DNA from: Planctobacterium marinum
GTDB lineage: Bacteria > Pseudomonadota > Gammaproteobacteria > Enterobacterales > Alteromonadaceae
Direction of reading: 5' to 3'
Length of the DNA: 64,000 nucleotides
NCBI RefSeq assembly: GCF_036322805.1
Contig: NZ_AP027272.1
Location: 248,001-312,000 of the forward strand
The translations under genes and the position numbers were made by a program. Each line of letters begins with the position of its first letter. Within the stretch, counting starts at the first letter, position 1. The notes beneath the pieces are model-generated. The model made no database searches and had not been told where the DNA came from. It saw nothing but the letters and a program-made list of their open reading frames with translations. Below are positions 60,435-64,000 of the stretch, piece after piece.

Positions 60435-61823
60435 TTACGCCATAAATCCCAAAGGTTTTCCAGAACCCGAAGGAGAATAAAAGCGATTTATATTCGGCAG
60501 TACATCCGCTAAGGCACTCGGCGTAACACCAAACCACAAAGCCAGTTCAGCAAAGTATTCGTCTAGTGATGTTGTGGGCATTAAAACACCGCGTCCGGTA
60601 TCCAGTGGATTATTCAGTGCCAGGCTGGGATAGGTGCCGTAAATAGTTCCGCCGTTAACCGCACCACCCATAATCAAGGCGTTGCCTCCCCAGCCGTGAT
60701 CTGAGCCTCGTCCATTGGAGGATAAGGTTCGGGCAAAATCGGAGGTGGTAAAGGTGGTGACTTGTTGTCCCAGCCCCATTTCATCAATGGCGGATTGAAA
60801 TGAACTCAGGCCGGCATCAAGCATGGTGAGCAGCACTTGCAAAGAACTGGTAAGTTCGTCGTGATGATCCCAACCCCCCAACGTGACAAAAAAGGTCTGC
60901 CGTTGCATTCCCAGCGTTTCTCTTGCGGCGATGGTTTTGGCCACCATTTGCATTTGCGACGAAAACTCATCTTGTGCAAATTGGGTGGTGAAACTATTTG
61001 CGGCCCCCAGAGCTGAAGAGAATTCGGCATTTGCCGACAACGAACTACTGAACAGATTGCGGTAAGCTCGGCGAAAGACATTGTCGTAGCTGTTGGCAAA
61101 AATCTCATCAATGGCTTGAGTTCGCAGTGGATCAACCTCTGCTGATTGGTCGCCATAGCCCACCAGTTGAGCGGTGGGCATATCCGCGTTACCAACGCTG
61201 TAATAATCCGTCACCCGGCCTGCCTGAAATTCGTTGGCACCGGAGGTTGAGATACTCATCGATATGCGCTGGTTACTGTTCTGGCTGCCCAGAATATCTG
61301 CGATGCGACCGCCCCAGCCGGTGGCGCTGCGCGCGTCCGGAATCGCGGTTTGCCATTGGCTGATTTGATCCGAGTGAGAGTATAAACCCAGTGGCAGCTT
61401 TGCTGTGCCATTGCTCAGCGCAGCTGTGCTGGTGGGCTCTATTAAGGTGCCAATATTGCTTAAAAACGCGAGCTTTTCTGAATTGTAGAGGTTCTGTAAA
61501 CCGGTTAATGCTGGGTGCAAGCCCAAGGTACGGCCATTGTTATTACTGTTATTTAGCGATAACAGTTGGTTTTGCGGCAGGGCTAAGTCCGTGCGGGTAG
61601 TTTGGTACTGTTGGTAGTAAGTGTTGTCAGTGGGTACCAACATGTTAAAAGAGTCGGCCCCGCCGGCCAGTAAAACACACACCATAGCTTTGTAATCATT
61701 GCTCTGTGCACTGGCTTTGGTAATGGCTCCCAATTGCGCCGCACCCACTAGGGTGGCAGCACTAATTCCTGCTCGGCCAGATTGATGTAAGAATTGACGT
61801 CTGGATAGTTTGAACTTTTTCAT
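60435..61823 (-). CDS. DUF1501 protein with Tat-type signal
   Basis: 462 residues. The N-terminus has a twin-arginine signal, SRRQFLHQSG (residues 7-16), followed by a hydrophobic h-region (AATLVGAAQLGAITKASA), so export in folded form is predicted. The DUF1501 domain runs from about 45 to the end (MVCVLLAGGADSFNMLVP, LGLHPAL, WQTAIP-type region, VTLGGWDHHDEL, FTTSDFARTLSSNGRGSDHGWGGNALIMGG). The conserved Asp, His and Asp/His-Gly residues hint at an alkaline-phosphatase/sulfatase-like metal site. The gene is 55 nt downstream of the DUF1800 gene on the same strand; this pairing is widespread and its function is unknown. Confidence 0.9.
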   Translation of the reverse strand: MKKFKLSRRQFLHQSGRAGISAATLVGAAQLGAITKASAQSNDYKAMVCVLLAGGADSFNMLVPTDNTYYQQYQTTRTDLALPQNQLLSLNNSNNNGRTLGLHPALTGLQNLYNSEKLAFLSNIGTLIEPTSTAALSNGTAKLPLGLYSHSDQISQWQTAIPDARSATGWGGRIADILGSQNSNQRISMSISTSGANEFQAGRVTDYYSVGNADMPTAQLVGYGDQSAEVDPLRTQAIDEIFANSYDNVFRRAYRNLFSSSLSANAEFSSALGAANSFTTQFAQDEFSSQMQMVAKTIAARETLGMQRQTFFVTLGGWDHHDELTSSLQVLLTMLDAGLSSFQSAIDEMGLGQQVTTFTTSDFARTLSSNGRGSDHGWGGNALIMGGAVNGGTIYGTYPSLALNNPLDTGRGVLMPTTSLDEYFAELALWFGVTPSALADVLPNINRFYSPSGSGKPLGFMA

Positions 61824-61878: not shown

Positions 61879-64000
61879 TTAAATAGCGATGGCGAAATCC
61901 GGTGAAATGGCGATCAGGTATACCGCCATGGCAACGCGTTCTCGGCTGTCTGAAAGGGCATCTACTGCTGTTTTAACTGCTGCGCGGGTTTCAGCCGTTA
62001 AGGTGCCGTAAGTCATCAAGGTATCCAGATGGTCCAGCAGGGCATCGCTATTATCGGCGAGTTGCAATTCAGCGCTAAAATCCAGTTTTTCAGTGGGTAG
62101 TTGACCAGATTGTGCTAACACCTGTCCTGTTTGCAGGGAGTAATAAATCAGATTCTTGATCTCCATAATGGTGGAAGCATTGGTGATCTGAAATTCCGGT
62201 GCCACAAGCCCGGCGTCTTTGATTTCACCATTGGGCGCGTAGCCAGGTTGGAAGAAATTAAAGACACTTGGTGCAGATAAGACGTATTGTCGTATCTGGG
62301 CGGTCATGTTGTAACCATCATCGCTAAAAGTGTTATCGCTGCTGGTGGCATTGAAGGCCCGCATTAAATTCACCACCCGCACGAAAGGCTCTCTCAGTCG
62401 ACCATCTGTGGCGCTTGCTAATTGCGGTGTGCTGCGCGCTTCGGGATCCAACAGAATTGCTCTTATTAAGGCTTTCATGTCTCCACGAGCAGCCCCGGTC
62501 TCGCCATTGAAAGCGGCACTCACTCTGGCGACGTATTCCGGACTGGGATTGGATTTCACCAAGCGCTGAATCAGCTGTTTACCGATAAAGGGACCGACAT
62601 TGGGATGATTGAATAGATTGTCGATGGCCGCTTCGATATCCTGCATGCCCGTTTGTCCTGCGGGTACAACCTGACCATTTAACAGGGTTTTGCTGCCCGG
62701 TTCATGATGGCTTTCATACATTTTCATGGGGGATAAGAAGGGGTCTGATTCAGACTCCAGTTCATGAATATCCATCACGCCGAAGCCACTCTCACCGGGG
62801 ATATTCCAGCTCAACCCCGTAAATATTTTGGCAAATTCCCGAATATCCTCCTGGTCATAGGTGGGAGTGGGATTGCCTTGGGCATCCAGTTTTCGGCTGC
62901 CATCGGCATTGAGTTCAAACAATCCGATACTGAATAACTGCATCACTTCCCGGGCATAGTTTTCGTCGGGGAAGGTGCCGCGCTGAGTATCTGTTTTGGC
63001 ATTGTGAATATGGCTTAAATAGATGCCCATGGCTGGACTGAGGGACACCGCCCGCAATAGCTCCCGGAAATTGCCAAAGCTATTGTCCAACAGTGCGTCG
63101 TAATATCCCACCATGGCTAAGTTGTTGGTACCTAATTCATCTACATTGGCGGAGATCACGAAGATTTCAGACAGCGCCAGGGCAACCCGTTGTCTGACCA
63201 TATCCGGCGAGGTCATTACTGATGTCCACCAACCATCTACCCAATAGCGCTCTGGATCACCAAGTTGCTCATAAATGATCTCGAACTCTTCATCGGAAAG
63301 TCCTTCGTTCTGTTCATAAAATTGTTCCACTCGATTCATCAGAAACTCGGCAAAAGGTCGGGTATAACCAACAGGCTGTGTAAACTGCTCTTCCAACCAT
63401 ACTTCTGGTCCCATTGCTGCCACTTGTGTGATGGTGGCATGATTCGCCCCCAAACTCGCTTGAGCTAAAAAGCGAGAGGCGTCTCTTGCTGCTTCGGTGG
63501 TCACGGTCATCAATGTGAGATCCGAAGCGGGATTGGGGTTGATGTAACCCGATGGCTGCTCTACGACATTATCTTCACACTCTTCTCCGTTTTCATCGCA
63601 CTCAGGAAACTCGTCGCATTCTTCCTCGTATTGATTGCACTCCGGAAGTTCTTCACATTCTTCCTGATTTTCGTCGCACTCGGGAAAGTCGTCGCACTCT
63701 TCTTCGTTTTCATCGCACTCAGGAAGGTCGTCGCATTCTTCCTCGTTTTCGTTACACTCCGGAAGTTCTTCACATTCTTCCTGATTTTCGTTGCACTCAG
63801 GAAAGTCGTCGCACTCTTCTTCGTTTTCATTGCACTCGGGAAAGTCGTCGCACTCTTCTTCGTTCTCGTTGCACTCGGGAAAGTCGTCGCACTCTTCTTC
63901 GTTTTCATTGCACTCAGGAACGTCGTCGCACTCTTCTTCGTTCTCGTTGCACTCGGGAAAGTCGTTGCACTCTTCTTCGTTCTCATTGCACTCAGGAAAG
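61879..64000 (-). CDS. DUF1800 protein with acidic Cys-repeat N-terminus (5' end outside window)
   Basis: At least 706 residues. The DUF1800 domain covers about the last 545, beginning near AARDASRFLAQASLGANHATI. Typical motifs include WLEEQFTQPVG, SIGLFELNADGSRKLDAQGNPTPTYDQEDIREFAKIFTGLSW, FNHPNVGPFIGKQLIQRLVKSNPSPEYVARV and VFNFFQPGYAPNG. A start at 63513 would be a TTG inside the frame; instead the frame continues without a stop to the window end, through a linker (EQPSGYINPNPASDL) into eleven 13-residue acidic, Cys-containing repeats. The start codon and signal peptide must lie past 64000. The gene precedes DUF1501 and is probably secreted or surface-bound. Confidence 0.85.
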   Translation of the reverse strand, partial: FPECNENEEECNDFPECNENEEECDDVPECNENEEECDDFPECNENEEECDDFPECNENEEECDDFPECNENQEECEELPECNENEEECDDLPECDENEEECDDFPECDENQEECEELPECNQYEEECDEFPECDENGEECEDNVVEQPSGYINPNPASDLTLMTVTTEAARDASRFLAQASLGANHATITQVAAMGPEVWLEEQFTQPVGYTRPFAEFLMNRVEQFYEQNEGLSDEEFEIIYEQLGDPERYWVDGWWTSVMTSPDMVRQRVALALSEIFVISANVDELGTNNLAMVGYYDALLDNSFGNFRELLRAVSLSPAMGIYLSHIHNAKTDTQRGTFPDENYAREVMQLFSIGLFELNADGSRKLDAQGNPTPTYDQEDIREFAKIFTGLSWNIPGESGFGVMDIHELESESDPFLSPMKMYESHHEPGSKTLLNGQVVPAGQTGMQDIEAAIDNLFNHPNVGPFIGKQLIQRLVKSNPSPEYVARVSAAFNGETGAARGDMKALIRAILLDPEARSTPQLASATDGRLREPFVRVVNLMRAFNATSSDNTFSDDGYNMTAQIRQYVLSAPSVFNFFQPGYAPNGEIKDAGLVAPEFQITNASTIMEIKNLIYYSLQTGQVLAQSGQLPTEKLDFSAELQLADNSDALLDHLDTLMTYGTLTAETRAAVKTAVDALSDSRERVAMAVYLIAISPDFAIAI
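63571..63999 (-). repeat. 39-bp tandem repeat (11 visible copies) coding an acidic Cys-rich 13-mer
   Basis: Eleven contiguous 39-bp units read in the DUF1800 frame. The consensus is FPECNENEEECDD. Variants are V or L for F, D for N at position 5, Q or G at position 8, and EE for the final DD. Cysteines alternate with spacings of 6 and 5 residues. Copies farthest from the domain are nearly identical, while those next to it are more diverged. The pair of units 6-7 recurs as 9-10 at exactly 117 bp (3 units), which shows a higher-order duplication. The array runs off the right edge, so copy number is a minimum. It is a minisatellite, not a CRISPR: there are no spacers. Confidence 0.9.

Follow-up and report, generated by a model that had tools for sequence, protein, structure and literature searches.

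An acidic, cysteine-patterned repeat array at the N-terminus of a DUF1800 protein of Planctobacterium marinum: a possible stalk

Genes for DUF1800 and DUF1501 proteins form a widespread pair, to which the parts of the literature consulted here assign no established function. In the available text of one report, the pair lies beside bacterial chitin synthase genes and a functional link is proposed (PMC5122149). One such DUF1800 gene, from Planctobacterium marinum, carries in front of its domain a tract of acidic 13-residue units with two cysteines apiece. What could such a tract do for a protein of this kind? The window (the whole stretch of DNA analysed, 64,000 nucleotides) comes from assembly GCF_036322805.1, contig NZ_AP027272.1, and corresponds to G000:C1:248001-312000, where G000 is the organism's own genome. 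The gene and its partner are laid out as follows.

63571..64000, minus strand: acidic Cys array, eleven 13-residue (39-bp) units of the form [F/L/V]PEC-x6-C-x2 (translation, Tandem Repeats Finder)
63475..63570, minus strand: linker (NVVEQPSGYINPNPASDLTLM...) from the array to DUF1800 (translation)
61891..63474, minus strand: DUF1800 domain (PF08811, E 1e-89, profile positions 1-418 of 419)
61879..64000, minus strand: open reading frame, the in-window part of the DUF1800 gene (706 of 845 codons, plus the stop)
60435..61823, minus strand: DUF1501 protein (PF07394) with a Tat-type N-terminus, 55 bp downstream of the DUF1800 gene
G000:C1:309879-312416 (L006:1880-4417), minus strand: the whole DUF1800 gene, 845 aa, ATG start
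G000:C1:312001-312416, past the window end, minus strand: two further units (one full, one short), six-Cys head and putative signal peptide (extended contig)

The array is strictly regular. Retranslation of minus-strand positions 63571-63999, in frame, yields 143 residues with 22 Cys, whose gaps run strictly 6,5,6,5..., and 75 Asp/Glu; the eleven 39-bp units and these counts agree exactly with those of the initial annotation. Tandem Repeats Finder gives a period of 39 with 10.8 copies and 0% indels for the window, and 12.3 copies for the extended contig. A pattern of eight Cys at this spacing matches 8 times in the window, every time within the array; in 100 dinucleotide shuffles it matches 0 times. 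Long open frames of 202 and 166 aa also cross the array, on the opposite strand (L006:3553-4161, plus) and in another frame (L006:3562-4062, minus); these are probably by-products of the 39-bp period and are no evidence of genes.

The initial annotation left the array open at the window end. The genome is a single contig of 4,872,183 bases, so the gene can be read past the right window edge, and rightward extension leads to an ATG start, a protein of 845 aa and a total of 13 units. Twelve of these are full and one is short (11 residues). From the start, the order is a putative signal, about 30 residues, a six-Cys head (FECDGDELCEAIMALCEDRQLCTILLQICTQHPDLCEEII), the short unit directly after the head, the twelve full units, the linker and DUF1800. 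The candidate Sec signal, an N-terminal hydrophobic segment read by eye, ends ...FLTLIAANSMA, and the protein is likely exported by this route. After the putative signal end, the N-terminal part holds 32 Cys; the DUF1800 domain holds none. The Cys gaps of the head are 5,6,5,6,6, compared with 6,5 in the array. The twelve strict units (156 residues) contain 83 Asp/Glu, 24 Cys and one His, while Lys and Arg are absent; the array also lacks Ser. A promoter/terminator scan of the 321 bases upstream of the gene gave a single terminator-like site, which lies on the opposite strand, and nothing promoter-like.

At its other end the array runs in frame into the DUF1800 domain, as first reported: no stop intervenes, and the PF08811 match spans residues 176-703 of the 706 in the window (302.1 bits against a gathering cut-off of 26.1). 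The short linker described between them is present, and the label 'Pro-rich' fits it loosely, NVVEQPSGYINPNPASDLTLMTVTTEAARDAS having three Pro. The partner gene is equally clear as DUF1501 (125.3 bits against a cut-off of 27). Its start, SRRQFL, is Tat-type by eye and by a simple motif, and an RR pair is found in the N-terminus of 14 of 14 aligned DUF1501 proteins. The DUF1501 gene adjoins DUF1800 in the aligned relatives, and the P. marinum locus is like the known pair in having both domains side by side and in the RR pair. A structural model of the DUF1501 protein has a mean pLDDT of 79.1. Its matches (best E 6e-7, TM 0.34) are to sulfatases, lipoteichoic-acid synthases and phosphoethanolamine transferases, which we take to be members of the alkaline-phosphatase superfamily. 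DUF1501 is accordingly given here as a predicted sulfatase/alkaline-phosphatase fold with no named activity.

Is the array real, and is it maintained? Slippage expands tandem repeats, and the array is known from an assembled contig, so a neutral low-complexity expansion or an assembly artefact has to be weighed. The genus-mate genome G002 encodes an orthologue of 921 residues with 19 units, 17 strict and 2 irregular. Three neighbouring units of G002 are identical in DNA, which is what slippage would produce and which indicates recent copying of units. However, the same design recurs in this second species, the P. marinum genome is a single contig, and frame and spacing are maintained across units. 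Unit spellings differ in G002 (e.g., RECDEDDEDCDDM, PECDESSEECEEA) with the Cys spacing unchanged, and VTEQPSGYVNPNPAADRTIM stands at the linker position. Over the 29 strict units of both species, E-C, E(+5) and C(+7) are invariant (29/29), and the Cys codons vary solely between TGC and TGT. Pairwise comparison of the twelve strict P. marinum units gives pS 0.70 and pN 0.088, a ratio of 0.13, and the 17 strict units of G002 give pN/pS 0.34; these are uncorrected pairwise counts among paralogous, possibly homogenised units, and the ratios are descriptive. The units of the array are kept by selection on Cys and acidic residues, and the neutral or artefactual explanation is highly improbable. The initial annotation had also predicted that gain or loss of units would alter the length of the array. 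This is borne out between two species (13 versus 19 units, with the three identical neighbours in G002), a comparison at the species level. G001, the third genome of the genus examined, has no match to the protein.

Outside the genus, the N-termini of DUF1800 proteins look different. A DUF1800 match is present in 20 of 40 near genomes, own genome included. A script classified 9 of 13 relatives outside the genus as having a strict N-terminal lipobox; two further relatives (L159 and L160) have LLAC-GG and LFAC-GG, and the other two (L164 and L169) have no lipobox. None of the 11 linkers measured in relatives contains Cys. Eight of them are short (29-92 residues, most Pro/Ser/Thr-rich) and three are long (280-298). 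In contrast, the DUF1800 proteins of P. marinum (L006) and G002 (L155) lack the lipobox motif, and the P. marinum protein instead has a signal peptide, by the reading above, a six-Cys head and the acidic Cys array. Head and array occupy the place of the lipid anchor and Cys-free linker of most relatives examined, and may have replaced a lipid tether in the genus. A fourteenth relative, L167, missed by the script motif, has no clear lipobox and carries two Cys (DCKRDCDD) before the domain, with no array; this protein and the long linkers weaken the comparison with lipoproteins.

These findings are consistent with the idea, to which we give slightly less than an even chance, that the array serves an exported protein as its stalk and belongs to a lineage-specific anchor-and-stalk module used in place of a lipoprotein tether. 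The anatomy of the protein, the sharing of the module (below), the selection on Cys and acidic residues and the copy-number difference between species are seen directly; from them we infer the export route, the disulfides, the anchoring by the head, the effects of ions and the mechanical role. The signal peptide, the roughly 30 residues, the six-Cys helical head and the acidic tract would constitute a single N-terminal module. Its head would fold into a helical knot, pinned by disulfides, and dock the protein to the envelope, and its array would be held extended by charge repulsion. In the oxidising periplasm, or outside the cell, the regularly spaced Cys would form local intramolecular disulfides, and the outcome would be a semi-stiff spacer that resists proteases and that Ca2+/Mg2+ would probably screen or cross-bridge. 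Such a spacer would present DUF1800 along with its Tat-exported, sulfatase-fold partner DUF1501, and gain or loss of units would set its length. This lineage seems to have exchanged the lipid tether for a long stalk of Cys and acidic residues, which hints that DUF1800 has to be kept at some distance from a membrane. The DUF1800/DUF1501 pair is known; what would be new is a tether of this kind on an envelope-type protein.

For the cell-surface stalk already proposed in the initial annotation, it is comparison that speaks: the array sits at the lipobox/linker position, it has no predicted secondary structure, and a like head precedes another acidic repeat in a G8 paralogue of the same genome. 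The disulfide cross-linking proposed there is plausible, given the likely export signal, the even number of N-terminal Cys (32 in P. marinum and 44 in G002, counted from signal ends placed by eye) and a DUF1800 domain that is free of Cys in P. marinum and has two in G002. Counting against the stalk is that two strictly kept Cys per unit exceed the needs of a passive spacer, and that the SDEDED-type tract of the G8 paralogue manages without Cys. If the stalk is correct, the 13-residue unit would be a compact, strictly regular design of a disulfide-braced polyanion.

The spacing of the Cys raises another possibility, namely that the array is folded and not a flexible tether: its units would continue the helical CxxxxxxC of the head as tiny hairpins, whose short helices, stapled by disulfides, make up a rod. 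Head and array share this spacing, and each of the 12 strict units of the P. marinum protein has a hydrophobic residue followed by P-E ahead of its first Cys. However, there is about one hydrophobic residue per 13, and of the 17 strict units of G002, 6 have Ala or Thr at the position before P-E. AlphaFold2 places helices in the head only: three of them, at pLDDT about 54-72, while the array (residues 116-303) is below 50 and has no secondary structure. The alignment behind this model is shallow (14 sequences, two with the array), and the low pLDDT is thus weak evidence of disorder in the array. A helical rod appears quite unlikely. The first part of the DUF1800 domain is mostly above 80, with a weaker stretch near 661-780; a search of this model against the PDB returned 57 matches at E <= 10 and 0 at E <= 0.001, a result that the low-confidence stalk included in the query may have hurt.

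The acidity of the array invites comparison with ion-binding repeats. Its units could bind Ca2+ or another cation through their clustered carboxylates, as a calcium sponge or a calcium-stiffened rod in which the Cys serve only as braces, and 83 Asp/Glu per 156 residues would suit such a role. DUF1800 is itself among the domains enriched in genes upregulated during calcium-induced biomineralization of Emiliania huxleyi (2/10, in the available text of PMC7563939), a hint that concerns the DUF1800 domain and not the array. Thrombospondin type 3 and calcium-binding EGF repeats resemble the array in being acidic and Cys-bearing, but a motif count finds 0 DxDxDG loops in the array, and neither Pfam nor NCBIfam places any family in the N-terminal 285 residues at E <= 1. 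The array is therefore not thrombospondin type 3, as the initial annotation had judged. EGF is a six-Cys module. Among solved structures, the array profile finds three weak EGF-type matches, modules of adhesion receptors (E 0.044-0.11); this similarity could favour ion binding, but the matches are short and of biased composition. Identity with calcium-binding EGF was rejected, there being no EGF Pfam match at E <= 1, a strict 6/5 spacing and structure matches at E 0.04-0.11 only. Binding of Ca2+ through charge is possible, but as the main role of the array ion binding seems unlikely.

A different cation might be captured through the thiols. The array could take up a soft metal (Zn, Cd, Cu, Hg) or iron and be tied to the operon directly upstream, which has the same orientation:

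L006:4573-8758, past the window end, minus strand: TonB receptor with STN domain, FecR and ECF sigma factor, upstream of the DUF1800 gene

The 24 Cys of the twelve strict units speak for this reading. However, CC, CxC, CxxC and CxxxC are all absent from the array (0 of each by motif count), which makes the thiophilic-metal binding suggested at the outset less likely. Metallothionein-like proteins are defined by CxC, CxxC and CC clusters, and a metallothionein-like identity was rejected on the same count. Moreover, the G002 pair has other neighbours, with no TonB-receptor operon beside it, and a close homologue of the receptor occurs in 0 of 29 relatives at the strict limit of E 1e-80. Metal uptake, as read from the TonB/FecR/sigma operon, is not favoured, and we consider metal capture by the array very unlikely. 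The TonB receptor itself has an acidic stretch (LPEELDDEDEGSEEFEDLF). Near the G002 pair, the stretches L155:13069-14279 (plus) and L155:10856-12934 (minus) comprise genes for a subtilase and for an ECF sigma factor, the sigma gene having a neighbour that is weakly DUF3379-like, below the cut-off.

A second protein of the P. marinum genome bears on the stalk from another side.

L170:9179-12001 (G000:C1:2287178-2290000), minus strand: like six-Cys head, SDEDED/SEEDED hexamers, G8 and a CEMIP-type beta-helix

In this 940-residue open frame, a head like that of the DUF1800 protein (FECDSNDALCEQVLEICEDENLCDLLVQLCQADQELCQEII) is followed by an SDEDED-type repeat without Cys and then by G8 and the beta-helix. 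The N-terminal parts of the P. marinum DUF1800 protein, its G002 orthologue and the G8 paralogue align from the signal onward, and signal, head and acidic tract look like a shared N-terminal module. At E 1e-10, the G8 paralogue has matches in 2 of 59 genomes, its own and G005, and neither genus-mate has one; the two G005 homologues, from another genus of the same family, begin, by eye, with neither a head nor an acidic tract. The head may be a docking element, and, being shared, it gives a starting point for studying what could be a new mode of protein presentation in such bacteria. A bolder proposal is that signal, six-Cys head and acidic repeat form a module for surface display, not described before and confined to the genus, which takes the place of lipid anchoring and was joined to unrelated domains on at least two occasions (DUF1800 and G8/CEMIP-type). 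Its Cys version, perhaps grown from the CxxxxxxC helices of the head, would be a disulfide ladder, an anionic stalk with covalent bracing and variable length that differs from the stalk repeats known in bacteria. This proposal we regard as doubtful.

SD repeats of Gram-positive surface proteins serve as stalks. The Ser-Asp stalks of SdrC/D and ClfA/B are like the array in being long, acidic, repetitive tracts beside a functional domain, and the SDEDED tract of the G8 paralogue resembles the SdrD repeat region (E 2.2e-13, far below the model's cut-off). Unlike them, the array lacks Ser and carries a pair of Cys in each unit, no sortase-type anchor is seen, and the order is reversed, with the presumed anchor side N-terminal. 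The low-complexity linkers of marine polysaccharide degraders (polyserine and others) are likewise spacers between modules of secreted proteins; they are Ser- or Pro-rich and Cys-free. Flexible linkers are discussed in the available text of PMC3124978.

How widely does the module occur? The head profile matches in 3 of 147 family genomes (own, G002 and G110), and the G110 match, 28 positions of a 100-residue open frame, was dismissed as chance. Among 369 class genomes the head profile finds only the own genome, and so does the array profile among 394 order genomes and again among 398 phylum genomes; all these sets are samples of larger groups, and G002, absent from the class, order and phylum matches, was presumably not drawn. 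A scan of the genome collection for the Cys spacing gave, among the matches listed (at least 116 stretches and at least 456 overlapping matches, possibly without the own genome), none that is array-like, the most acidic having 26% Asp/Glu; this is partial evidence that the array is rare. Phage, plasmid and viral collections contain no match to the N-terminal part, in a BLAST search whose low-complexity masking may hide the array, and none of six pattern-fitting stretches from these collections was confirmed. Solved structures gave no match to the head profile and one chance-level match to each whole protein. Narrow word searches of the literature, covering few subscription papers, found no description of the acidic Cys repeat or of the head. 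Elsewhere in the genome, a 1754 aa open frame at L002 has a region (G000:C1:3080011-3080478, plus strand) 40% identical to part of DUF1800. It is perhaps a second, divergent DUF1800 protein, whose upstream part, judged by eye, resembles a series of Ig-like modules.
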